A DNA stretch of 64,000 bases, from the NCBI GenBank assembly GCA_900155495.1, contig FTLJ01000455.1, positions 62,001 through 126,000 of the forward strand. The letters are read 5' to 3'. Of the stretch, positions 2,082 through 54,917 are shown piece by piece (positions within the stretch are counted from its first letter, which is position 1; the number at the start of each line of letters is the position of its first letter). This DNA comes from Porogramme epimiltina. Taxonomy: Eukaryota > Basidiomycota > Agaricomycetes > Polyporales > Polyporaceae. A program made the translations under genes and the position numbers. Below the pieces are notes generated by a model. It saw nothing but the letters and a program-made list of their open reading frames with translations, was not told the origin of the DNA and did no database searches.

Positions 2082-3850
2082 CTAAGGTGGAGAGCCCGAC
2101 GACGGATGCTCAGCGGACGCTGCTGACCGAGCCTCCGCGGCGGGCTGGAGCAGCCGCTGCTGCAGCTCGTACTCGGACAGCCACGCCGGCTTGAGCTCCG
2201 CCTCCGCCTTCTCCGCCGCGGCGACTTGCTCGCACACCCACTTCAACTTCTCGTCCCTGCCCTCGTCCGCCGCCGGGGCGTCGGCGCGCGCCTCGCTCTT
2301 GGTGGCCTGGCCCTGCGTGATCCGCGAACGTCAGCGACGGCTCAGCGGGGCGCAGGTGGGCAGAGATCGGGACAGACGCACCGGCATCCGCTCCCACGCG
2401 TCACGCATCATCTGCAGCATGAGCAGGTCCTCTCTGGCCTTGAGCCACCGGATGTTCGCGCTGCGCTCGTCGAGCGTGAACGGTCGGATCCGGACGTCGT
2501 CCCATTGGACGTTCGTGCCAGGGGGGAAGTACCGGTTGCGGTACGCCGCGAGGAGCGCGTCGTCCTCCGCCGCGCGGTCAAGGTATCGCGCGATCTGGCG
2601 CCTATGCTGAGGGGTCGCATGGGGCGAGAAAATAGGCCCACTGAGGTTCGTGAAGCGAGCGAGGCGGTCGGTGTCCTCTCCGCGGATGAGGAGGGTGGGG
2701 GCCTTGAAATCAAAATATCGGAGAACGCTCTCTACGCCGTCTACGAGCTCCACCATCACCCGCGGCTGCAAGAATATTAGAGAGCGAAACATATAGACTA
2801 GAATGAGCAAAACTGACGGAGTTTGTGCCAGCTTCCATAAACGCAGTCAACGAGACATCTTTGAAATCGTCATCTTCAAGGGTGACAGTTTTGATGTCAA
2901 ATTGGGCGAGGTATAGCGGAATGAGGACAGGATATGCAGCCGTCTGTGTCTCATAAATTAATTGAATGTTCTACCACCATAGGACGCAATTAGCCTGACC
3001 ATAGTCGATGTCACTGAAGACGGCTCCACACGTAGGATTTCGGAGATTTGGCCGTCCGAGAGCGACATAGAGTGTGCAGCATCGATCAGAGGGAAGGGTG
3101 TGTGGCTAAAAGGCATACACAACACGTCTTCTCCTTGTTGCTTCAGCAAGCTCTCCGACCACGGGACGCTCTCGCTATCGAGAATTTTTGGAGAGGCGTA
3201 ATTAAGTGATGATAGCGGTGAATAAACATTGCCTGGAAATCGCGAGTAAGGCGCAGGATATTTCGGCCAGCGGTGGACATGTAGCTACCTGGGAAGGCAC
3301 TATGTTGAACAATGAGGGCAGCAGTAGTCAGCTCACACCGGATGTTTAATGTGCATATTGTGACGGAAGACTTACGAGTGCCCGAAGTGTATTCGACCCG
3401 AGTCCTACCCATAGTGTTTAACAACTCCACGCCGCCCCGCGAATTGTGAACTTACCTTGATGAACTCCGTATCGCTTTTCTCCTTCCGCAACCATAGAGA
3501 TGCTCCAACTTCTGCGTCGATGATCCAGGTCGGGTAGTAAACGAGCTGCAGACGTTTAGGTTGCAGCCCCGGGCCCATAAGTCCTGGAAAGTGGCCGTTC
3601 AGCCACGTGCTGAAGATCTGGTTGCCCGTGAAGTAAGCTGTGTTCGTGCTAAGTGTTTTGATAGCCTGTTCCTTTGACACCACGAACGGAAAGGCTGACC
3701 GGGGGGTATCTAGTCAGCGCTGCAGGAGTACGCGGACCAGAACCTAGGAGAATGACCTCTGACTTTGCTAGAGTACGGCCGATGACTGAGCAGTCGTTGT
3801 CGCCAGCATCGTTTGAGGGCCGCATAGCTACCATTTTGGCGCGACAGCAT
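2082..3850 (-). CDS. conserved fungal mitochondrial protein, function unknown
   Basis: Starts with a basic presequence (MLSRQNGSYAALKRCWRQ, then RPYSSK), which points to mitochondrial import. After the first intron it reads FPFVVSKEQAIKTLS, later LVYYPTWIIDAEVG, then DSESVPWSESLL, AYPVLIPLYLAQFD, and near the C-terminus LKWVCEQVAAAEKAEAELKP, ending at a TAG at 2082-2084. I built it from about six exons on the minus strand; the joins 3768-3690 and around 3000-2930 are frame-consistent. The VPWSESLL and AYPVLIPLYLAQ blocks match my memory of a widely conserved but unnamed fungal protein; I do not know a function and give none. It is head-to-head with the SCJ1-type gene, 273 bp apart, so the two may share a promoter. 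Confidence 0.7.
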
Positions 3851-4123
3851 GGCTGCCGTCCCGAAGAGTAGACCCAGAGGACCGCGAAGGGGTAGAATGT
3901 AAGGAGGATGCAGTGGCAGTAGCTTCGAGCTCAAACGGCGAACTCGGCCGAAGCCTGACATCCCTGTTGGTAACCCCGTACTAGGGCCACGGCCCGGAGG
4001 CAGATCACGTGATCACGCTACGTGTCCGCGTTCCAAATTGGGAAAACTGACATTATACCGTCGGCTCACGCCGTCCGCAGTCTCCAAACGTGTTCTCGTC
4101 CTCCTCACACTACCCCTCGCTGG

Positions 4124-5578
4124 CATGGGGTCTTCGGTCTTTCTGGTCTTTCTGGTTCTGTCTTTGGCTCTCTTTGCGCATGCTGCCGACCTATATAAAA
4201 CCCTAGAGCGTTAGTTCAAGGCGCGCACCTCGTCGGCCAAGCATGTCTCTGACTGACGTTTCATCTCTAGTCTCGAAGTCGGCTTCGGAGCAGGATATTA
4301 GAAAGGCGTACAAACGGCTTAGGTGCGTGGCTGTGCGCCAGTCAGCACTAGCGCATCCTGACTTAATTCCTCAGTCGGAAATATCATCCAGACAAGAATA
4401 AAGAAGCCGGCGCAGAAGAGAAGTTCGTCGAGATCGCCCACGGTACGTTATTGTGTGCAAGCGTTCGCGGACACCCGCCCTTATACTCTGCTAGCCTACG
4501 AGGTCCTCTCGGACTCTACCAAACGGCAAATCTACGACCGCCATGGCGAGGAAGGGCTCAAGGCACACGAAGGCGGCCGCGCGCACCACGCCAACCCCTT
4601 CGACATGTTCCAGAACTTCTTCGGGGGCGGCGGCGGCCACGCGCAGCAGACCCGCCGCGGGCCGACGTCCATGAGCGAGTTCGAGATCTCGCTCGCGGAC
4701 GCGTACTCGGGCTCGAGCATCGACTTCATGGTCAAGAAGCGCATCCTCTGCGACCACTGCCGCGGTACCGGCGCCGCGTCCTCGGCGGACTTGCATACGT
4801 GCGGCGCGTGCAACGGCCAGGGCGTGCGCATCGTCCGCCAGCAGATCATGCCTGGCATGGTCACGCAGTCACAGATGACGTGCAATGAGTGCGGCGGGCG
4901 CGGGACGGTCATCGGGAAGAAGTGCCCGCACTGCGGGGGGAACAAAGTCATGGACCACACGCAGCATTACACTCTCGAGGTGCCCAAGGGTGTCCCCGAG
5001 GGCCATGAGGTCGTGTACGAGGGCGAGGCGGACGAGTCTCCGGACTATGAGCCCGGTGATGTAGTCATTCGGATCCGGACGAAGAAGGACCGCGGTGGGT
5101 GGCGGAGAAAGGAGACTTCCTTGTACTGGAAGGAATCCATATCGGTTGAGGAGGTGCGTTCGCTTGCTTTCCCGCTAAGTCTTGACAAGCCAACCATCCC
5201 TCCAGGCGTTGCTGGGCTTCGAGCGCAACATTACACATCTGGACGGACACATAGTAGAGATCCAACGCACTGCTGTCACTCAACCAGGTGAGCTTCTACT
5301 CGGGTCGTCTCTTGTCGCATTGGCTGATGCTTTCAAAAGGGTATGTACAGACGATAACAGGTGAGGGAATGCCCATATTTGAGAGGCCGTCAGAACACGG
5401 TGACTTGTATGTGGAGTACAATGTCGTGCTCCCAACTGAGCTCTCCCCGGAGATGAAGAAACGTATGTGCAGTCCTGATGCCTTGCCGTGCCTACGAGAC
5501 CTATCTAACCCACCGGCGATATCAGGTCTTTTCACCGCATTCCATCCTGATGGTCAAGGAAAGCGCGATGAACTCTAG
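4124..5578 (+). CDS. SCJ1: ER-lumenal DnaJ (Hsp40) co-chaperone, SCJ1 type
   Basis: Partner of the ER Hsp70 (Kar2/BiP) in folding and ER-associated degradation. Exon 1 encodes a signal peptide (MGSSVFLVFLVLSLALFAHA) running straight into the J-domain (DLYKTLELSKSASEQDIRKA, HPDKN). A Gly-rich linker follows, then four zinc-finger repeats CDHCRGTG, CGACNGQG, CNECGGRG and CPHCGGNK, the DnaJ C-terminal beta domains (KKDRGGWRRKETSLYWKE, LLGFERNITHLDGH), and a C-terminal RDEL tetrapeptide that fits ER retrieval. Introns at 4210-4270, 4323-4374, 4443-4494, about 5155-5206, 5288-5339 and one near 5462-5525 all restore frame. I chose ATG 4124 because only it supplies the signal peptide and the start of the J-domain; the ATG at 4243 lies inside the first intron. 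Confidence 0.93.
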
Positions 5579-5774
5579 ACTATTTAGGATGTAGAGTATA
5601 TTAGCCGACATACGTCGCTGCACTAATCTTATTCGCTCTCGTTGGGGCCTGGAAATGCACGTTTGCCTCGCTTATTTATATCGTCAAATGGACCAAGCAA
5701 TGATGAAAGGGCGTGAGGATTACAATGATGATACAGACAGACAAATATGATGATGATACATGCACAAGTAGTGC

Positions 5775-8700
5775 TCATGCCTGTGAACCGTCCGGTTAAT
5801 AAAGTGCAGCCGTAGAAGAATCGCCGGGTACGCTCACCAGGTAATTGTACGACTTGCGATCCTCACAACGCTCCAAGTATTCGCGCTATACCGTTTACGG
5901 TCAGTGGACGTAGTATGGCCACAAGTCAGGCCACCCTACCTCGATAAGGCCTTCTATCCGCCTCTTGATGGCCATCGGGTTAGGCTGGAACCGGCTGGCG
6001 AGCTGACGTGTGACCTCGTTCACTAGGTCATTGTGTGACATATGCTTCCTGTCCTTCATAACGCGCACGATGCACGCCTGCAGACGATTCGGCCCCCCGG
6101 TCAGCCATTGATCTATCGCCGCCAGGGACGAGATAAAGAAAGACGCGCCTCAGTCTGGTGTTTGCGCTCCTCGTCGACTCGGTCCTTCGTCTCCTTGCGT
6201 TCCTCGGTGTTCTCTACACGCGATGCGATAGTGTTGATCTTAATCTTCTGCAGAGGCGCAGAGAAATCTGCGTTGAACGAGAAGCTGTCGCCCGCGTTGA
6301 CGTCACGCCCGGGTGGGTGCTTCTTGAGAACCTTGAACTTGGCGCATGCGAGCGACTGCAACTGCCGCTTGAGCTCGGCCTCAGGTATCGAAGTCGCAGA
6401 CTCGATTTCCTGCATCGCGAAGACGTAGATTCAAAGACGTTAGCTAGGGGTAAGGAGGTAATGAAAAGCGGATAGTGAGGATACGTACCTCATAAGTGAG
6501 GACCTGGTCGTCCCGGATGTCCTCGAACAGCAGCAGTATGACGAGCGCAAACGTGGAAACATTGAGGTCGTGTTTCCGCGCCTTGAACGTCACGCGTACT
6601 TCCGCATTGCCCATCGACGGTTGCCAAGTGAGCCTTCTGCCACTATGTCGAGCGAGGTAAAAACGCTCAAAGGACTGGGAGGCCTTAATAAGCTCTTCGG
6701 GGAACGTGCACGTTGCTGGGGTGAGGGACACCGGCCAGGACGTGCAGGTCATCACGATGACGGAGAGATCGATGTCTCGAGGCTGACACGCACTCTGTTG
6801 AGCAAGCGATATTGACTGAACGTTGCCCGAAGAGGAACTCACCGTATCGCTGTTGGATAGATGGGTGCGGTAGGCGTCCATGACGTCTGAAGAGAGCTTC
6901 ATGTCCTTGAACATGTTTTCGAGCTTCTGTGTGAACTGTTGTCCACATTCCATCTTGAGCTTTGTTAGCATGCCGCGTTCCGCATCGTCAGATACCGAGC
7001 GACTGTGTAGTAGACGTTTGGCAAGGTGGCCCTTGTAATACCGCTCGAAGACGTCTTTGTCGGCGATGAAACGGAACACCGTAATGGTCTTGTCGAGCAC
7101 AATGTCGACTTCTGTTTCTGTTTTCTGGGAGGCTGTAAGCTACAAATCGCTACTGTGCAGTCGTATTCTTACCCCTTTGAGACCCTTCTTCAGGTTTTCA
7201 TCAATGAACAAGGAGATGAACTCAGGGGCCTTCTCGTTCTTGTTGATGAAGGTCTCGAATGCCTAGCAGTGATTGCATTAGCCATGAAGCATAAGCTCAA
7301 AAGAGACTACCTCACCTCATTTGTACCGCTCTCGAGGTCGCGATCGCTCTGGAAAGATTTCGACCAGATTGTGTCGAACGTGTCCTTCAGGTCCAACACA
7401 TCCTGTACCCATTTCAATGCGAGTTGAAGTGTTTGAGCGGCACCGTTGAGAGGACGTGCTTTCGCCTTCCCTTTCGCCTTGGAAGAGGACTCTCCGGCGT
7501 CCTCTTCCTGGCCAGAGTCTACACCATCGCCACTCAGCCCTGTGTCGACTTCGTTGATTTTACCTCCTCTCTGAATGACGCTCTCTTTCAGCGACCTTTT
7601 TAAACAGGGCAGGCCGGCGGGGACCTTGGTAAACAGTCGGTACATGCGGGCGAGGTCGTCAAGGCGGGCATTGTTGATCATCGCATCCAGGCCGGAGTTG
7701 GGCATATCGACGACGGTCTTTAGATGCGCTGACACGAGATGCTCCTCGAGGATACTCCGAAGGAGAGGCGTTGTGAGTGTCGAGAGGATGTGGTGTGTTC
7801 GCGACTCTTCCTCTTGGAAACGCGCTTCTACCTGCGGGCGGTTGAGCCCATGGAATCAGAAGGCGCATGTTGCACTCACTCGTTTCAAGTATTCAGGAGC
7901 ATCGCACGTCTCTAGCAGCCGCTCGCCCTCTTTCTTATAGAACGCTTCACTCTCCCTCTTGACGGCGGGCTCAATGTCGCGCTTGTATATCGACTGGCTG
8001 TCACGGCCTTCTGGGACGTACAACTGCAAGAACACATCGACGCAACCCTTGACAGACGACCTGTTGATAGTATACCCGTCACGCTCGGTTTGGATGAGAG
8101 TGAGGACAGCAGCAATGACGTGGTCTTGAATTGGGGCATGGACGATATGTCTGATGAACGCGTTCAGGCCTGCGTCCCAGATCTCTGGCACGTTCGCGTT
8201 CTTGGTGTAGACGCGGTCCTGCAGGTGCAAGGTGCTCGGCGCTCGTTCGAGACAGGAGATCGCGAAGGCCACGCACCATATACCGCAGCACATCCCGCAG
8301 CTTGGACAAGCTGGAGGTATGGTCGTCCCAGACCTTCTTCACGGACTTCAGGAGCATCTCTCCCTCCTGGCTCTTCTGTACCGGGTCATTGGACACGTTG
8401 GTAGGAAATGCGGGGATTATGAACTGGTTCGCGAGCTTGTCAAGGTTGTCGGCTATAAGCTGCGTTGTGCCCTTGTAGAGGCGCTCCCCATTCTTGTGGA
8501 GTACCATGTTGTATGCATATCGATGGTTCTCCTCAAACGAAAGGTTCGCGGCGTTGTGGTTCTGAATCTCGACGATGTTCTTGCGAAGCTTGCCCCACGT
8601 CTCGTCCATAGAGACGTCCGGGCCATGCTATAACAACATGACCGATGTACATGCAGATGCGTGCCCAGAGGTCAGAGAGCGTGCCGGCGACATGTAATAG

Positions 8701-45985: not shown

Positions 45986-46785
45986 ACTTAAGTGGCTGGA
46001 AAAGAAGGCGTCAGCGCGGGCAGCAAGCGGTTCGGGATAGCGTAGCACGCACGGGGTTGAGAGATTAATGCGGTTGTACTCTCAGGGAGGTTATGGAATA
46101 CTACGCAGGCCAAGATCCGCGATAAATGGAGTCAAAAGCAGGATAAAGAGTGTGTAGTTGCTGGAGGGCTTGGTGGCCAGGATAACAGACTCGTCTGGGG
46201 CGCGCGAGGAGAGCGAGTGGCATCTGAGCAGTGAGCACACGCGTGAAAACGGAGGACGTCCGCGAACTCACGTCTGAGTTCAAACGCAAATGCGGCTCCT
46301 CCGCCAGGGGTATACTGGTATCAGTCGTAGAGCTTCGTTGGGGACGTTCAACGTGAGGATGGCAGAGATAAAGAGAAGAACGGGTGAGGATTGTGCCGAA
46401 TGGTGGACCGGAAGGACGGTGGGGTGGCCGGATGGTGTGGGAGGGGGACACGGGAGCGTGAAAGAAAAGGAGACCGGAGGAGGGGAGGTGATTCGCCGAG
46501 CACCCTTTAGAGGGGCGGAGGCGGGAGGAAGAGTACAAGGCGTGAGTGTGGCAGAGCCAAGGCTTGGGCAGAACGGGATGCAGGCCCGGTCAAAGACGCG
46601 TTCTGCGACGCGTGACGGTTCTGCACGTGATCCGTTCTCGATGTGACCTCATCGGTTTTCGGCGCGACGCTCGACGGAAGGCGGACACTCCGCCGGAGCT
46701 GAGCTGCGTGCTTGTGTCTTCCGACTTGCGCCGGTTTCTCCTCTCGAGCGCAGCCTGCCAACGCGACATATATCGTACGCCGGTG
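45986..46785. promoter_or_regulatory. divergent upstream region of RMI1 and carnitine acetyltransferase
   Basis: 800 bp between two head-to-head genes. A minus-strand open frame at 46101-46538 contains short hydrophobic stretches in a neighbouring frame but no convincing start, so I do not call a gene. No TATA box recognised. Confidence 0.35.
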
Positions 46786-49282
46786 ATGCTCCCAGCCGCA
46801 TCTCGCACTCTTGCTCGACCTCGCCTGCCTATGCAACCTCACCTCGTCGCTGGTCGGCGACGCGCTACCTCGACTACATCAAGCACGGCCCACCCCTCGC
46901 AGTCACTACCTCGCCTACCTGTCCCAGACCTTAACAAGTCTCTTCGGAGCTACCTGCGTTCTCTCGAACCTCTCCTTCTAGAACAAGAGGCACGAGGGGG
47001 ACCAGCCTTCAAGGATGCTTACGAAACTCGCGTGAAACTCGCGGAGGATTTTGAGCATGGCATCGGGAAGTTATGTCAGGAGAGGTTACTCGGTATGTAT
47101 TAACGCTGATATCTCGTCTATCCTATGCTTAGCAGCTCTGTGGGGGCATCAAAGAGCTCGATAAAAACTCCCCACACAACTGGTTAGATGACAACATCTG
47201 GCTTAAGAAAGCCTACCACGAATGGAGAGCACCTCTTATAGTCAACTCCAACTGGTGGCTAGCCTTGGTGGACGACCCCACTGTCCCGCATCATATACGT
47301 CGCCCCTCTGGACACAAATACGGTTATACGTCTTGGCAAGTTCGACGTGCAGCTTGGCTCGTCCATCGAATATTGGATTTCAAGGCCCAGCTCGAACAGT
47401 GAGTTTTGAAGGGTTTAATCAGTCGTCTGCCACTCACATTTCTCAAGAAAGGATCTGCCCCCCCAAGATAATCGCTCTGGTATGCAGTCATTGGCATTAG
47501 CCACGCTCCAGCAGTCTTATATTTTTACTAGGTATCTGGTTCCGCCATGCGGCGCTGCAGTCATTCAATAGCTGTCGTATTCCGCGACAGGACTGTGATA
47601 AATTCTCTACCGCTACAGCACCATCGGATCCCAACTCACGGAAGCTAGTTGTGATGGTCGCGGACTGGCTGTACGCTGTAGAAGTGGCCAACCTGGACGG
47701 CAGACCCCTTCCGCCAGCCACACTCGAGCGACGACTACTTGCGGTTGTGCAGGACGCTAAAAGTCGCCTAGCGGCAGGTGAACACGCCGTACCTGTGAGC
47801 GTGTTGACGACGGACGAACGAGATCAATGGGCGAAGGTGCGTTTCTGCGCAGTATGCGTCAAATAGACTCCTCTCATAAGAAACGAGCAGAATCTAGCTC
47901 ACTTACTTTCTCTATCCCCGGAAAACCACGCTATATTTAACGCCATCACGTCCTCCGTGTTCGCGTTAAGCCTGGACGACTACTCGTACACGCTTTCCGC
48001 GTCGCATCACACACCCGACGCGGACCTCGCCTCCCACCTCCATAATGTCCGCTCTGGCCACGGCGATCGCCCAGGACACAACAGATGGTACGACAAGCCT
48101 TTCACGCTCATCGTCGAGGCGAACACTCGCGCAGGCGTTCTTGGCGAACATTCCCCGGTGGACGCCCTTGTGCCGAGCATCATTGCGGACTACGCGATCG
48201 TTCAAAACATGGTTGAAGACGAGTTCTCCAGTATCGCCCAGGATGACACCTTCATGAGCGGCAGTCCGCCGAACGCAGTCGTTGGCGGTTGGACTCGTCT
48301 CGATTGGGTCACTGACGACACGATCGCGAAGGAGTGCGAGGGTGCGGCGGCGCGCGCGAAGGCGATCGTCGACGACTCGGACGCGGATGAACTTGTGTTC
48401 GACGCGTACGGCACGGAATGGATCAAGAATGAAGGTATGTGTGATGCGCTTCCGTCCGACGTCTCGGCCTGCCGTCTGACATTCCCTTGCTTCGTTCCTC
48501 AGCGCGCCTCTCGCCTGACGGATACGTTCAGATGGCGATGCAGCTTGCGTGGTACCGCACACGCGGCGAGTTCACCGCGACGTACGAAACTGCCCTCACG
48601 CGTCTCTTCAACCACGGTCGTACCGAGACGATTCGCACGCTCTCCACAGACAGCCGCGCGTGGGTCCTCGCAATGGCGGATCCCAGCTGTGACGTGGGTG
48701 TCGTTGTTCATATCGAGTGCGCCGTAACGGAGGCTGATGTATGCTGGACTCCAGGACGCAACGCGGCTGCAGCTTCTCCAGCGCGCAGTGCAGGCGCACA
48801 CTGCGCAAACGCGCCAAGCTGTGACGGGGCGTGGGTTTGACCGCCACCTCCTGGGGCTGCAGTTGATGCTTCAATCTGAAGCGGACAAGTTGCATCCTCT
48901 CTTTGAAGATGATCTCTTTTCAGAAAGTCAGGCCTGGAAGTTGAGCACAAGTGGCCTCAGTGCAGGACACCAATTCCGAGGGACTGGGTATGTGGCTTAT
49001 GCAACCAGTGGGCACTGTCATGCTGACATCATGCATATAGGTTTGGAGCACAATATCTCGATGGCTATGGAGTCAACTGTGAGTGACTTGCACACATTAA
49101 TGCATGCAATGTGTACTTACTGTGCAACCTTAGATATGCCAGCACCTACTAGACTTAGATTTGGCATAGAGTCAAAGTATTCCTCTCCTAGAACCAGCAC
49201 ACAGCTCTTCATGTCTGCTATCACACATGCACTACAGGATATGAGGACACTTTGTAGGCCTACCTTACATTCACATCTGTAG
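46786..49282 (+). CDS. CAT2: mitochondrial/peroxisomal carnitine O-acetyltransferase
   Basis: Moves acetyl units between CoA and carnitine so that acetyl-CoA from peroxisomes or cytosol can enter mitochondria. Exon 1 carries an Arg/Ser-rich presequence (MLPAASRTLARPRLPMQPHL) before LPRLPVPDLNKSLRSYLRSL. Later: HNWLDDNIWLKKAYHEWRAP, TSWQVRRAAWLVHRILDFKA, FNSCRIPRQDCD, NRWYDKPFTLIVEANTRAGV and LGEHSPVDALVPS with the catalytic His, DEFSSIAQDDTF, WYRTRGEFTATYETALTRLF, and the end GAQYLDGYGVNYMPAPTRLR, FGIESKYSSPRTSTQLF. Introns include 47093-47154 and the last one in 49079-49133. Stop TAG 49280-49282. No C-terminal peroxisomal SKL. From about 48890 the coding bases become CpG-poor with altered codon choice, while the protein motif order stays normal. 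Confidence 0.92.
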
Positions 49283-50890
49283 TAGTTAGAATCACACAGC
49301 ATGTTCAACATTGCATATGGCATGTGGTGCATAGTATTTGAGAAAAATTGTACAATTCAATGTTAAGTATCAATGGTGAGGTGATCAGGGTTGATCCATA
49401 CACCTTCACCCCACTGGCTAACCATCCTTCCAACCAATGTGCCTGCAGCTACCCCATACACAAACTCCCACTTGGTAACAATGTACATGCCTCTCTTGCA
49501 GCGAGTGAGCATGACATTTGTGCGCCTTAAGTCTTTGAGAAATCCTAGACCAGAGGTTCTTGTGAGAGAGACAATAATGTAGTCTTTCTCATTTCCTGGT
49601 GAACAGAAGTCAGCCTAATGCATAAACAATCTAAGGGGACACCCTGAGTCTGGGACTTGCCTTGAAAGGAGTCCACATTGAAGCATTTATCTTCCCAGAC
49701 AAGACCTGCTTCCTTCATCTCCCTCTCCAAAAAGTTCCTTTGAGCATCATAAGGGGTGATGACACAGTACTCCTTTCCCTCCAGCTGTAGCTTCTCAGCA
49801 AGTTTAAGGACTGCTGCTCTTTCTCCAGGGTTCTGGAAATGCATGCATAAGCTAGTGAATTCTGCAAGTGGCCATGGAAAGGGCACTCACATGCTGACTT
49901 GTCTCATGTGGTTGTTCCCTAGAGTTGTTGACATGAACAAACCAGCATGAAGGCTGTGCATGAGGAACTGGATGCTGTGGGTTGGACTGCAATTGGCCAT
50001 TGTAGACAACATCAGATACAACTTCTCCAATGAATGGAGGCATTCGATCTGAATTCTAATGATGAGCAATAATAAAGGCTAACCAATGTTGTGCACCTAC
50101 ACTGAATTGCAAGGAACAAAATTGATTCATGTAGATGGTCAACTTCAAAGATGCTCTTGATATTAGAGTCTTCTTCAGAACCATAAGGAGGCACTAAATA
50201 GAATTGAGAACTTCATCAAAGTAGACAGGGCTACTAGAAAGCTCACATTGCATATCATCTCCAATCATGCAGATTTTGTGTATGGAAGGAAATTGCCTAA
50301 GAGGGGCTACATAATCAACATAACAGATTTGACTTGCTTCATCAACAACAAGAGTCTTAATTGGATTTGCTTGGGTGAAGATGTGAAGTTGTGGATGAGA
50401 CAGCATAGACAGGGTGCAAAGGATGACAGGGATCCCTTGAATCTTGGAGCGAGCTCTCTTGAACTGATCTGAGCAGATCACATTCTTGTTGATGTTGGTG
50501 TACAGGTGATCGTGCCTGGAAAATATGAAAGGTCACTAACATGTTATGGTAGGAGGGGGGGGGGCAGTACCATCCATATTGGAACTCCCTAGACACAAGA
50601 AGCCTCCAATCCACAAAGCCAACATCTGCCAATTTCTCAGCAATGTTCTTGACAGCTATGTTGGACTGGGCTACCAGCCAGAGACCAGTCTGACCAGCAG
50701 CAACAGCTGAGGCAACAAAGGCAGCAATGACAGTGGTCTTGCCTGAAAACCAGTGTGAGTAGAGTATGAATAGGAGACAAAGCTATAGAGATCACACCTG
50801 TGCCTGGAGGGCCCTGGATGATGGTCAGCCTAGAGTTATTGTCTGTCTGGAGCATGTGTTCCACAGCTCTTTGCTGTGATTCATTCAAAG
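48890..50890. other. CpG-depleted block across two convergent gene ends
   Basis: By eye I find about seven CpG dinucleotides in 48901-50880, against eight in the 60 bases 48781-48840 alone. TpG and CpA are frequent and third positions shift towards A and T in both genes. The block begins inside the last large exon of the acetyltransferase gene and ends inside the helicase gene near the exon before Walker A, so it does not respect gene borders. No terminal repeats or target duplications were seen at its edges. Confidence 0.75.
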
Positions 50891-52138
50891 GGCGTTGAGT
50901 GATGATCTCGGGGATGCTGTCAGAGACCGGAAAGCCTTCTGGCCAGACGAACTCGGGGGAGGGGTTGAAGATGTACTGGTAGAAAGGATTATCGGATACC
51001 GCCGTACCACCCTGCAGGGACTGAAGGACTGCTTGAGCCCTCTGTTGCTCGGCGTTGGTTGCGCGAGCTGGTCCTAGCGTGCTGATCGCCGTGATCGTCC
51101 GACCCTCAAGGTTGACGTTAGATGTGATCGTCACGTTACGCCCGGCGAGCGAATTGATCTGCCCATCGAGGACCATGTCGAGTCCAGTGGCATGGTCGTG
51201 GACCCGAAGCTGCTGTGGATTCTACACACCACACAAGACTCAGATATGAAAGATGTATATAGCACTTGTCCACTCACCGAGCCCCTCTGGAACCTTGTCT
51301 GAAAGCGGTCGGCGCGAACGTGCGCGGTACGGCCGTGTGCGCCGACGGCGGAGAACTCGTGGGCGACAGTATGAGCTTCAGTGAGTTGGAGGCGATGTAA
51401 GCCACGCTCGCTGTGGATTATTGCGCGCAGCCGCTGACGAGAGATTGAATTAGATGGAAAAACGGATGCAAGCGCGAAGCAGCGACTTACAGCTTCATCA
51501 AAGTCTCTCGTGTTGATGCGCTTGGCGTCGCGCACCCTCTCCTCCATAATTTCGTACTCGGTGACGCGACGTGCACCCCAAGCCTGGAGGGCGAGGTTCG
51601 TTGCTCGCCTTGCACTGGCATCGTAGAATGTTGTCGCGAAGACGGAGTTCACGTTTGCCTGGTGGACAGGTGCGCAGTCCCCCACGGCGAACTGGATCGT
51701 GGTGAGGGGGCTTCTGTCAGCAGCGCGGCAAGCGTCCTGGAGATCGACACCATTGAGGATCCGCATGTTTTGGTCGACGAAAAGGGCAATCGCGATTTTG
51801 TCCAGGTCGAAAGCCACGAGCGTGACGCTGGGATTGCATAGAACCTCGGTGGAGAGGATCTCCCGGCGTTCGTATGCCTTGGCGCCCTTCCCCTTGGCGT
51901 GGAACTGGATGATGAGGATGCGGGTGCTGATAGCGAGAATAAGGTGACTCAGGTTGCCCTTCGAGGTATATCCTGCGGCGAGTCCGACATTACGGGGGGC
52001 AGGGCAGTCTTGGAAGAACTCATCAAACAATTCCTTGGTGATGTTTGACTCCGACACGTCGCCCTGCAGTTGTATAGAAGGATGATCCTCATCAATGAGA
52101 GTTTGTTGCAATAAGCGGGCTTGGTTGTTTCGGGCCAT
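49363..52138 (-). CDS. UPF1-like superfamily 1 helicase with basidiomycete N-terminal domain
   Basis: SF1B-type RNA/DNA helicase. About 400 N-terminal residues (LFDEFFQDCPAPRNVGLAAG, SHLILAISTRILIIQFHAKG, YEIMEERVRDAKRINTRDFD) lack an assigned family. The helicase core shows: ITQRPLNESQQRAVEHMLQT (Q motif), GPPGTGKTTVIAAF (Walker A, spliced), TLVVDEASQICYVDYVAPL (Walker B), MIGDDMQLPPYGSEED, FLAIQYRMPPFIGEVVSDVV, FNVDSFQGNEKDYIIVSLTR, RRTNVMLTRCKRGMYIV. All core motifs are intact. One intron (49596-49660) uses a GC donor. UPF1 cysteine-rich domain is absent, so this is not UPF1 itself; related to NAM7/SEN1-like helicases. The C-terminal two thirds lies in the CpG-poor block. Start ATG 52138; a longer in-frame start at 52297 looks like UTR. 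Confidence 0.87.
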
Positions 52139-53159
52139 GGCTCTACCGTTGGGGTGATCGGATTGAGGTTTAGAGAGATGAAAGAGGAGTCGTCTGGAGT
52201 GTGGCTCGGTGGATGGCGCGGGGGAGTCAGAGGCGTTGCAGAATACGAGCGCGGTCAAGGCGTGTCGGGAACGCGGCGGGGAGCGAAGGAATCCCATCTT
52301 CGGCGATACAAAGGCGGCAACCCGAATGTCTGATTTCGCGCCCGGTACTTATACTGCATCGATAGGCACCGTCCGAGACATTGCACGATGCAGCACATTG
52401 GTTTGCCGCAAGCTACCGCAGCATTCGCGCTGACATATGACCGCAGATAGGCACGCAATCGTCAGAGGTTAGAGTCATTATATAAATGACCGCGGCGCGG
52501 TACAGTGCGTTCGATAATACTAGCATAGAAGTAACGGACCGTCCAGAAAGGTGCATAGTTGCCGACGCTCCAGCTTAGTCCCCCCGGGGAATTCGGTGTC
52601 CGATCCTTGCACCTCTTGTCGAAACGATAGAACAGTCCGGGTGTGATAAGTAAATGCCTGAAGATATAGGAATGTGAAGCACGCACCCCTAAGTCCAGTC
52701 CCCAAGATGTTTTGTCCTTCAAGGGTTGGTAGCGAATACACCAAATCTCCCTTTGATGAAACTCTTTGCGGGGAAACGGGGCAAGAGACTGGCGAACAAT
52801 ATTTGCACGACAGGAGGATATGAAAGGCGGATTGCAGGAATGTTCTTTAGATAGCGGTTCCACTTGCGACCCGAGGTGTCAGTCGAGACTCGATGTCCGG
52901 CGAGCCAGTACCGCAGCGTGACATAGTCCGACAGGGGACGGAGACACGTGCAGTGAAGACAAGAGAGGCCGGCAGAATGTGGGGGCAATATCGAGTTCTC
53001 AGTATTATGAGCGGTGCGCGTGAGTGTCGGAAGAAAGCCGTGAGCGTCTTAGTCCACCGAGCCGAAAGTTCGCGCGTCACTGGCGACCGTCGACAAGTGC
53101 TTGCACTTCAACCATCTTCCTCTCCTCCACCTCATCGCCCAATCCCTTTTCCTCCTCTC
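52139..53159. promoter_or_regulatory. divergent upstream region, helicase and PAM18
   Basis: About 1 kb between two head-to-head starts. No coding exon supported; the last 60 bp before the PAM18 ATG are CT-rich, typical of a fungal transcription start region. Confidence 0.4.
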
Positions 53160-53525
53160 ATGGCCACGCCAATTATTGTCGGTGTCGGTGCTATTGCGGC
53201 TGCCGTTGCCGGTCGCTCGCTCCTTCGCAGGGGCCTACTCGGCGGGAAAGGTGCTGCTGAGGAGTGGGTCAAGGGCGGTTTCAAGGCCAAGATGGACCGT
53301 AAGGAGGCTATCGCCATCCTTGGGCTAAAGTACGTCTTGTGCACATCTTCTCTTCCTTCTGAACTAAACGAGGGACTCAGAGATGGACCGGCACTTAAAA
53401 ACAAGCTGAAGGATGCACATCGACAAATCATGCTCGCCAACCACCCGGATCGTGGAGGTTCTCCCTACTTAGCAAGTAAAATCAACGAGGCCAAAGACCT
53501 GCTCGAGAAGGAGGGGAGGAGGTGA
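53160..53525 (+). CDS. PAM18: PAM18/TIM14, J-protein of the mitochondrial import motor
   Basis: Inner-membrane J-protein that stimulates mtHsp70 at the TIM23 channel. Two exons. MATPIIVGVGAIAAAVAGRS is the single membrane segment, followed by KGGFKAKMDRKEAIAILGLK, then after a 51 nt intron DGPALKNKLKDAHRQIMLAN, HPDRGGSPYLASKINEAKDL, LEKEGRR. HPD motif and the RGGSPYLASKINEAK block are diagnostic. About 105 residues, the usual size of the short fungal form without a long intermembrane-space tail. Stop TGA 53523-53525. Confidence 0.95.
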   Translation: MATPIIVGVGAIAAAVAGRSLLRRGLLGGKGAAEEWVKGGFKAKMDRKEAIAILGLKYVLCTSSLPSELNEGLRDGPALKNKLKDAHRQIMLANHPDRGGSPYLASKINEAKDLLEKEGRR

Positions 53526-53927
53526 TTGTTGGACTCCATCGCATAGTGCGTTTACCATGTCCTCTCTATACCACGTCAACTAATGCTCGTCGCGCGACCT
53601 CACAGTTGCTGCTTGCTTTCCAGGTCTATTTGTATCTATGCTGTAATGATGTACATTCACACCCACATAATTCATCCTCCTTCCTCTCTGTCATCCAAAC
53701 AAATGACTGCAACGACTGTGACTGACGTCTCTGGCTGCCATTCCAGAGGTGAGTGTTTGGTTCAAACGTTCCTGTGGCCTCGGGCACCCTCCAAATCCGG
53801 ACCGTTTCCATATTCTAGTTGTTTGCATGTGGCCGTTCGGCCAACGTTTGGGTTGACGAGGATGCAAAGTGCTTTTACCGTTCATCTCCTTTGCTGACTA
53901 AGCAGTTTCCTCCTACCACTTGCCACC
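53526..53927. other. intergenic, PAM18 3' flank and EFM4 promoter
   Basis: About 400 bp between two plus-strand genes. Pyrimidine-rich and AT-richer, with no coding exon recognised. Confidence 0.5.
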
Positions 53928-54917
53928 ATGTCCGCGCCCGATCTTCAGCCATCCAAGCTTGGGACAAAAGCTCAGTGCGTACATATTCAAAAGATTTAGC
54001 CCATTACGCTTAGTAATCGTGCAGTTGGGATCATGTGTATTCATCCGAGCTAGCAAATTTTGAGGATATCGGAGATGAGGGTGAGATATGGTAAGTTTGG
54101 TTTCTTTTGTGCATCAAGCTCTTTCGCAGCATTATTAATCGGCTGCCTAGGTTTGGGGAGGACAGCGTGGAAAAGATGGTCGATTGGACCCTGGAGAACG
54201 TTCCAACAGATTCAGCACCTGCGATCCTTGAAGTCGGTGCAGGCAACGGGAATTTACTCTTTGCCCTCAACGAAGCAGGATATGCCCCCGGGAGGATCTG
54301 CGGCATAGACTACAGCGCCGACGCAGTAAGACTAGCACAGTCGATTGCGAAAGCCAAGTCTGCGGTGTCGGCCGAGGAGGGTGACGAAGAGGATGAAGTC
54401 GGACCGGCCTTGAAGGACGCCGACAAGATCACCTTCATGGTGTGCGACTTCCTACATGACGACGTCACTCCCCTATCAGCCACGCGCACGGCGGAAGATA
54501 GCACGTCCGCTTCAGTGTGGGATCTCGTCTTGGACAAGGGCACATTTGACGCGATCGCCCTTGCGGAAAAGGATGAGAGTGGGTATGCACCTGCGGAAGG
54601 GTACCCAGCGAGGATAGGGAGGGCTGTGAAGCCAGGGGGCCACTTCCTCATCACATGTAAGTCTCCCAGCAACATGCCTCCAACGCGCTGTGCAATTGGA
54701 TTCCTGTAGCATGCAACTTCACCGAAGATGAACTAAGGACCAGATTTGCTACTGACGATACCGGGCTCCGATACCAGTACGTGGCGGTCCACTGGCTTAT
54801 TGAGACGTGTTTTTTCATGCGTGCTACAGCTCAAGGGTGACTTGGCCGACATTCTCGTTCGGCGGGAAGAGTGGGAACGTGTACTCGACCGTCGCGTTCC
54901 ATAAGCCGTTACAATGA
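53928..54917 (+). CDS. EFM4: EF1-alpha lysine methyltransferase EFM4
   Basis: Class I SAM-dependent methyltransferase; yeast Efm4 dimethylates a lysine of elongation factor 1A. Exons: MSAPDLQPSKLGTKAQ; a short one reading WDHVYSSELANFEDIGDEGE; FGEDSVEKMVDWTLENVP; then the SAM site AILEVGAGNGNLLFALNEAG, CGIDYSADAVRLAQSIA, ITFMVCDFLHDDV, and WDLVLDKGTFDAIALAEKDE; a later exon CNFTEDELRTRFA and the end VTWPTFSFGGKSGNVYSTVA, FHKPLQ. The VLDKGTFDAI motif and the FGGKSGNVYSTVAF end mark this family. An acidic insert (AEEGDEEDEVGPAL) lies between two strands of the fold. Stop TGA 54915-54917. Confidence 0.92.

Follow-up and report, generated by a model that had tools for sequence, protein, structure and literature searches.

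In animals whose gene bodies are methylated, such as the honey bee, Nasonia and the oyster, the CpG observed/expected ratio (o/e) of the genes falls, while their 5′ ends are spared and the coding sense is kept. Among fungi, Catania and colleagues are said to have found in 2020 that DNMT5 maintains persistent CpG methylation in Cryptococcus, the methylation reportedly lying at centromeric, subtelomeric and transposable element (TE) DNA. According to excerpts of two reviews (PMC7862722, PMC13297926), fungal methylation lies mainly in TEs and repeats and most fungi are without gene-body methylation, which has been largely lost in fungi, perhaps owing to its mutational cost. Excerpts of other papers report methylation in alleles of Puccinia striiformis (PMC12129025) and methylated genes in Laccaria and Coprinopsis (PMC8889193), linked in these species to low expression; methylation in genes is also reported for Uncinocarpus reesii and Metarhizium robertsii (excerpt of PMC7862722). 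CpG and cytosine methylation in genes is thus on record in fungi, and the excerpts mention no comparable footprint of CpG depletion. Polypores do methylate CpG, since 98.7% of methylated cytosines in Ganoderma sinense lie in CpG, and RIP-like mutation of TEs has been described in the Basidiomycota, preferring CpG in Ganoderma transposons (PMC4457147) and TpCpG in Microbotryum (PMC4352252), again as far as the excerpts go.

Here we describe two CpG deserts over genes of the polypore Porogramme epimiltina. They resemble the gene-body decay of animals in the fall of CpG, the spared 5′ ends and the kept coding sense, but form two isolated domains with CpG o/e of 0.07–0.10 among sampled genes that are otherwise CpG-normal, and the edges of the first can be placed to within 75 bases or less. 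With the Cryptococcus DNMT5 system they would share maintenance methylation inherited over evolutionary time, although here on working genes. The C-to-T change in CpG context is that of the Ganoderma and Microbotryum TEs, whereas the affected genes here are open and have no close second copy, there is no TpCpG preference, and sampled reverse-transcriptase loci are undepleted. Among the open-licence literature matches listed, judged by title and the start of the abstract, none described genic CpG deserts in fungi.

Results

A CpG desert across two convergent gene ends

Coordinates refer to the window, a stretch of 64,000 nt from P. epimiltina (GCA_900155495.1, contig FTLJ01000455.1, 62,001–126,000). 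A sequence-only reading had claimed a desert of some 2 kb with about seven CpG in 48901–50880, and counting bore this out: seven CpG start in that interval (48977, 49059, 49502, 49523, 50045, 50450 and 50511), and the surroundings hold approximately 80 per kb. A two-break model fitted best at 48846–50890, with eight CpG inside and a log-likelihood gain of 126.7 nats; these are the maximum-likelihood bounds of the desert (48846..50890, no strand), with which the CpG positions and a 500-bp profile agree. The 2-unit support of the edges was 48831–48906 on the left and 50870–50905 on the right, and both edges lie inside exons. The four 500-bp bins of 49001–51000 had CpG o/e of 0.04, 0.07, 0.10 and 0.23. 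As the reading had supposed, the rest of the window differs, its other 124 bins being normal (0.76–1.43). In the four bins GpC o/e was 0.88–1.20 and TpG+CpA o/e 1.40–1.77. Over 48890–50885 the CpG o/e was 0.07 and the GpC o/e 1.06, so that CpG is strongly under-represented and GpC normal. Flanking repeats at the edges amounted to weak short pairs, and no RNA family reached the gathering threshold in 46000–54000.

The left edge falls within the first listed 3′ exon of a choline/carnitine O-acyltransferase gene on the plus strand (48733..49282, from the sequence and the Carn_acyltransf profile, E 6e-35), whose 3′ exons, with splice sites placed by eye, are about 48733–48987, 49041–49078 and 49134–49282, the last with the stop. 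The right edge falls within exon 3 (50798–51221) of an SF1 (UPF1/NAM7-like) helicase gene on the minus strand (49363..52138, nine exons), which has AAA_11 and AAA_12 domains and NAM7/UPF1 as best solved relatives. Inside the desert are exons 4–9, six introns and the bulk of the helicase core; the CpG-normal 5′ part (50891..52138, minus strand) served as an internal control. Neither gene is broken, as had been claimed: the spliced helicase reads through 774 aa without a stop, and the acyltransferase C-terminus extends to profile position 573 of 574. The two stop codons are separated by 80 bp (49283..49362), and on this spacing the 3′ UTRs of the two genes presumably abut or overlap.

A second desert on the DNMT1 gene

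A look-up of DNA methyltransferases turned up a second desert of about 3.7 kb in the same genome, over an intact DNMT1 gene (contig C599, 48546–52295). The frame is open across the 1142 aa read, the N-terminus lying beyond the stretch read, and the domains are of the Masc2/RFD type (RFD PF12047, 9e-6; BAH PF01426, 1.5e-16; C5-methylase PF00145, 1.9e-54). The 5′ parts of both the helicase and the DNMT1 gene are spared from CpG loss. By eye, the gene next downstream of DNMT1 has the same orientation, and no convergent neighbour was readable. Overlapping antisense transcripts, which the sequence-only reading had offered as a cause, are therefore possible in the window but leave the second desert unexplained, and convergent overlap is no general cause.

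What was lost and what replaced it

In both deserts, essentially nothing but CpG has been lost. Two-fold NNY codons (C/T) kept C in 2 of 99 cases before G and in 147 of 230 elsewhere. Before G, C was retained in 799/1176 codons of 39 control ORFs (52,308 bases; long open frames, the longest non-overlapping kept, uncurated and possibly including wrong frames) and in 34/51 codons of the genes' own 5′ flanks. Retention in deserts and control ORFs was 63/88 versus 507/656 before A and 42/63 versus 362/510 before T, and somewhat low before C (42/79 versus 555/846). CAG/CAA choice had shifted as well (32/77 in deserts versus 409/623 in control ORFs; own flanks 17/29). The rise of TpG and CpA was strand-symmetric, the window desert having 190 TpG and 193 CpA and the DNMT1 desert 276 TpG and 278 CpA; the difference between desert and flanks per kb was −77 for CpG, +26 for TpG and +36 for CpA. 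Introns were cleared too (2 CpG in 1243 desert intron bases versus 10 in 219 flank intron bases), likewise the intergenic gap. By preceding base, the residual CpG were ACG 0, CCG 1, GCG 3 and TCG 3, so that all NCG classes were lost and no TpCpG preference was seen in the desert. GC content dropped by 10.4 points, of which about 7.7 are explained by the CpG loss; the pattern argues against a general AT shift.

At four-fold codons before G (Nx|G), the control had C at 0.51 and T at 0.17, and the deserts C at 0 and T at 0.47; lost C thus became mainly T. At four-fold NC|H codons the proportions of A, C, G and T were 0.28, 0.31, 0 and 0.41 in the deserts and 0.22, 0.34, 0.21 and 0.22 in the helicase 5′ part. 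Here T has replaced the lost G more often than A has, whereas simple deamination predicts A, and later codon re-equilibration or another force is therefore needed.

Of the coding CpG that remain in the helicase and DNMT1 deserts, 12/17 lie in arginine CGN codons, versus 37/162 in the flanking parts (Fisher p 1e-4). AGR accounts for 47 of 59 arginine codons in the deserts and for 7 of 32 in the helicase 5′ part; it might be the ancestral state in this family. Compared with 30 relatives, no effect of CpG loss on arginine content was seen, and the content is within their range. Arginine is kept at seven of the eight helicase desert positions where at least half of 30 relatives have it (the eighth is His), and at 19 of the 20 DNMT1 desert positions where at least 70% of 30 relatives have it (the other is Ser). 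Protein identity of the desert part is ordinary, at 0.73 to Dichomitus, the same as between Dichomitus and Cerioporus, and neither the 5′ part nor the desert part of the helicase departs from ordinary identity to relatives. Trees of these two parts, made with 18 of 120 listed relatives and weakly supported as to exact position, placed both among the core polypores with branch lengths like those of their neighbours. The confinement of the loss to CpG, the equal rise of TpG and CpA, the ordinary divergence and the kept arginines together fit gradual decay of 5-methyl-CpG under purifying selection.

Sampling of the rest of the genome

Seventeen other stretches, 166,824 bp in all and seven of them from the window's own contig, contained no such desert. 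They are not a truly random sample, consisting of the opening 10 kb of ten contigs picked arbitrarily and of most of what remains of the own contig. Their poorest kilobase held 28 CpG versus 3 in the desert, their longest CpG-to-CpG gap was 146 bp, and their lowest 400-bp window had an o/e of 0.42. Finding none in 166,824 bp puts the upper 95% bound, by the rule of three, at roughly one desert in 56 kb, so that hundreds may exist in the genome. Twenty reverse-transcriptase loci were also free of deserts (o/e 0.80–1.42, with 0.59 in the lowest 400-bp window and no value for the first 800 bases of locus L032).

Neither was a desert found in 49 short genome snippets. The snippets covered Argonaute/Piwi (5 snippets, 17 matches), MutS (6, 11 matches), Tet_JBP (3, 3 matches), RdRP (9, 28 matches), SRA (2, 4 matches), a DNMT1 paralogue (3) and a DNMT5-like gene (1; 44 SNF2 matches). 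Nine more lay at 15 helicase matches outside the window gene (24 matches in total), and the other 11, also CpG-normal, came from C599 (seven) and from four further places on C123 and C534, the contigs with the helicase relatives. The idea that silencing-pathway genes are a desert-bearing class found no support, all their sampled snippets being desert-free; the lowest counts among these were 2 CpG in 70 (L067) and 2 in 60 (L089), and none had 0 or 1. A scan of viral_contigs for relatives' DNA by DNMT1 alignment found none. Equal depletion in many ordinary genes, which would have refuted the reading, was not seen in these stretches and snippets; the desert is not unique, given the one at DNMT1.

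Discussion

The desert probably records, as a mutational footprint, a CpG-methylated domain with fixed borders that has long been inherited at a genic locus. We infer methylation as the cause, and with it its great age and possible persistence today. The genome encodes an RFD-BAH-methylase DNMT1 on C599 and a distant DNMT1 paralogue on C704, and on C126 methylase and SNF2 matches share a strand at a distance of 3 kb, which is the layout of DNMT5; Tet_JBP matches are present as well. Such maintenance enzymes of the DNMT1/DNMT5 type would keep methyl-CpG, and deamination of 5-methylcytosine on either strand would convert CpG to TpG or CpA. Purifying selection would retain the amino acids, arginine codons passing from CGN to AGR and CGN arginines making up most of the coding CpG that remain; the footprint is found on the DNMT1 gene too. 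Methylation lasting this long inside functioning genes would be out of the ordinary among fungi. The normal CpG at the 20 reverse-transcriptase loci speaks against methylation, since prolonged TE-directed methylation would have left the opposite, although the best-scoring of these copies are probably young. The edges are sharp to tens of bases, which is surprising for a methylated domain and also counts against it. The part of the GC drop that exceeds the CpG loss, the excess of T at NC|H codons, the slightly low C before C, the CAG/CAA shift and the possibly ancestral AGR codons weigh on the same side.

The sequence-only reading had proposed methylation or a RIP-like process; C-to-T decay specific to CpG and sparing the coding sense is supported, a RIP-like process on an old duplication is not. 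Such an account supposes that repeat-induced mutation of the CpG type struck an old duplication, whether local or dispersed, whose other copy has since been lost. Sharp edges recall repeat ends, and a plain CpG target as in the Ganoderma transposons would fit. The targets CpA (Ascomycota) or TpCpG (Microbotryum) would not, NNY before A being nearly unchanged and all NCG classes lost. A genome search with the window block matched itself alone, though masked or very common repeats may escape it; for the DNMT1 desert a second copy was sought at the protein level. Helicase paralogues are distant (36–55% identical in protein over matched pieces) and, like the reverse-transcriptase loci, CpG-normal where sampled. 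Moreover, the helicase and DNMT1 frames are both open and not inactivated, and a burst of CpG mutation, which turns CGN into Cys, Trp, His, Gln or stop, is contradicted by the kept conserved arginines. We regard this origin as improbable.

Sharp edges inside exons would be expected if gene conversion or introgression had replaced the segment with DNA that was poor in CpG and heavily methylated, from a silent copy that had diverged, for example, or from a related nucleus. The earlier judgement that a replaced segment is less likely agrees with the trees and identities of the two helicase parts, which carry no foreign sign, and before A and T the choice of codons matches the rest of this genome. 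A second such event would be required at DNMT1, and we give replacement little credence.

Scarcely probable is another CpG-targeted mutation process that acts without stable methylation, by local TET/JBP oxidation and faulty repair or by a sequence-directed deaminase. Tet_JBP matches occur at three places, one above the curated cut-off; TET itself, however, requires a 5mC substrate, and we know of no such process that acts on single loci within genes and keeps to fixed borders. That CpG was removed by selection or by a codon-usage programme, in the service of expression, splicing or RNA processing, has in its favour the location in exons of functional genes and a change of NCG to NCT as well as NCA that resembles codon choice more than single deaminations, but is very improbable with introns and the intergenic gap also cleared, edges that cut exons, TpG and CpA raised equally, and lost C before G at four-fold codons becoming mainly T.

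Returning to inherited methylation, a stronger form of it seems to us rather unlikely: that a mushroom-forming fungus has held CpG methylation with fixed borders for tens of millions of years in a few working genes including DNMT1, the enzyme marking its own gene in a feedback loop whose age would be legible from the CpG loss. If the methylation reading is true, a genic domain that has paid the full mutational cost while keeping its proteins and borders would be a natural experiment. It would inform on how domains of methylation find their place and are passed on where no DNMT3-type enzyme is at work, and would bear on self-regulation of a methyltransferase gene. If more deserts exist, CpG o/e alone could map ancient fungal methylation without a methylome. 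If the stronger form is right, deserts with the same borders would be expected in the orthologous genes of other Polyporaceae.

Results

The window (C368:62001-126000, in a genome of 41.9 Mb) was profiled in 500-bp bins. The observed/expected (o/e) ratio of CpG was 0.04, 0.07, 0.10 and 0.23 in the four bins covering 49001-51000, and 0.76-1.43 in the remaining 124. Seven CpG starts were counted in 48901-50880, in agreement with the sequence-only reading. A two-break likelihood model placed the left edge of this desert at 48846 (support range 75 bases) and the right edge at 50890 (35 bases); both edges cut exons. GpC was unaffected (1.06), and TpG and CpA rose equally (o/e 1.55 and 1.56); per kb, the desert differed from its flanks by -77 CpG, +26 TpG and +36 CpA.

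The minus-strand gene at the desert (52138 to 49363, nine exons) is stop-free once spliced, and AAA_11 and AAA_12 domains identify its 774 aa product as an SF1 helicase. Its closest solved relatives are NAM7/UPF1. Among the matches listed, the closest sequences were from polypores (Dichomitus squalens 62%, Cerioporus 60%, Trametes 57%) and no identical protein was found. The convergent gene on the plus strand closes with the C-terminus of a carnitine acyltransferase, and 80 bp separate the two stop codons.

A search for DNA methylases returned two overlapping loci on contig C599 that extended into a second nearly CpG-free stretch. In L042, an 8-kb piece (C599:45001-53000), this desert occupies 3546-7295 (C599:48546-52295), with 26 CpG in 3750 bases, and covers most of a gene whose product has RFD, BAH and methylase domains and is thus a DNMT1. 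The gene has 20 exons and 1142 aa when spliced, up to the limit of the stretch read. CpG is at normal levels in its 5′ part and reappears in the last exon. Reading by eye puts the start of the downstream gene near L042 2980, with the same orientation. The DNMT1 desert therefore requires no convergent overlap; such overlap, proposed earlier as a cause, is possible at the closely spaced stops in the window but leaves the second case unaccounted for. Where read (L019; L077-L080), CpG was normal in a DNMT5-like gene on C126 and in a distant paralogue of DNMT1 on C704 (32-40% identity). Of the 27 introns read in the helicase and DNMT1 genes, all but one began with GT; the exception, with a GC donor (GCAAGT), lies at 49596-49660 in the helicase gene, within the desert.

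No desert was found in 17 other stretches of the genome (166,824 bp), where the poorest kilobase held 28 CpG, against 3 in the window desert. Nor was any found at 20 reverse transcriptase loci (CpG o/e 0.80-1.42), or in 49 short snippets, which were sampled from C599, from helicase paralogues or their surroundings, and from Argonaute, MutS, Tet_JBP, DNMT1-paralogue, DNMT5-like, RdRP and SRA matches. Several retrotransposon loci (L022, L028-L030) had CpG o/e of 1.28-1.42, above the window average of 1.04. Several related SF1 helicase matches stand in a row at C123:11359-38033, with an RdRP match on the same contig (C123:42198-43224), and a tandem pair of RdRP genes with nearly equal scores lies at C71:93323-100187.

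To see which bases were lost, the deserts were compared with 39 control open frames. In two-fold C/T-ending codons followed by G, C was kept in 2/99 cases, against 799/1176 in controls. The corresponding values were 63/88 and 507/656 before A, 42/63 and 362/510 before T, and 42/79 and 555/846 before C. Desert introns held 2 CpG in a total of 1243 bases. All four NCG classes were gone from the window desert, so there was no TpCpG preference.

Some changes fit decay less well. GC fell by 10.4 points in the window desert, of which CpG loss accounts for about 7.7. From the helicase 5′ part to both deserts, the G lost from four-fold NC·H codons was made up by T (0.22 to 0.41) more than by A (0.22 to 0.28), whereas single deaminations predict A. 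CAG made up 32/77 of CAG/CAA codons in deserts, against 409/623 in controls and 17/29 in the 5′ parts of the two genes themselves. GAG/GAA was weakly A-ward in both deserts, on small numbers. The CAG/CAA and GAG/GAA shifts, and NCG to NCT beside NCA, go beyond simple CpG deamination, although numbers are small. Long codon re-equilibration could be the source of the GC, NC·H and CAG/CAA misfits.

The helicase desert part is as similar to its relatives as these are to one another, and it has 18 arginines, against 7-19 across 30 relatives, some partial. AGR triplets were 47/59 of arginine codons in both deserts but 7/32 in the helicase 5′ part. Arginine shared by 70% or more of relatives was present at 7/7 positions in the helicase desert (AGR at 6), 19/20 in the DNMT1 desert (AGR at 13) and 14/15 in the helicase 5′ part (AGR at 3); a looser cut gave His at 1/8 helicase-desert positions. 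Of the coding CpG remaining in the two genes, 12/17 were in arginine CGN, against 37/162 in flanking parts (Fisher p 1e-4). By these comparisons, the desert proteins are held by selection. Since CGN to AGR requires a non-deamination change, the process would be long-running, unless the ancestor already had AGR.

Discussion

The deserts are probably best read as bounded domains under long-lasting, heritable CpG methylation, whose CpG would decay while selection acts. The second desert over DNMT1 is the chief support for this reading. A foreign or converted segment is unlikely, as the sequence-only reading had judged: in two trees of 18 relatives each, for the 5′ and desert parts, the helicase sits among core polypores (exact position weakly supported), no second DNA copy of the window block was found in the genome, which also gives no support to the suggested old local duplication, and no strong repeats were found at the window-desert edges. 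A RIP burst is unlikely because it would have destroyed the arginines, which are kept, and the nearly untouched CpA excludes RIP of the ascomycete type.

Methylation in the related Ganoderma sinense is almost exclusively at CpG (PMC4457147), and Basidiomycota use DNMT1-RFD and DNMT5 (PMC13297926, PMC7862722). Ganoderma transposons are described there as having both CpG-type mutation and methylation (PMC4457147), whereas the reverse transcriptase loci sampled here show no such mutation, which weakens a simple transfer of the Ganoderma picture. That the desert falls on DNMT1 itself suggests self-marking, a doubtful possibility drawn from one gene.

The chemistry of methyl-CpG decay is known, and methylation within some fungal genes has been reported (PMC8889193, PMC12129025, PMC7862722). 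By title and abstract start, no report of genic CpG deserts in fungi stood among the open-licence papers listed for the terms used. The novelty lies in where the deserts occur: in this mushroom-forming fungus they are isolated, deep and sharply bounded, and they lie in working genes, DNMT1 included.
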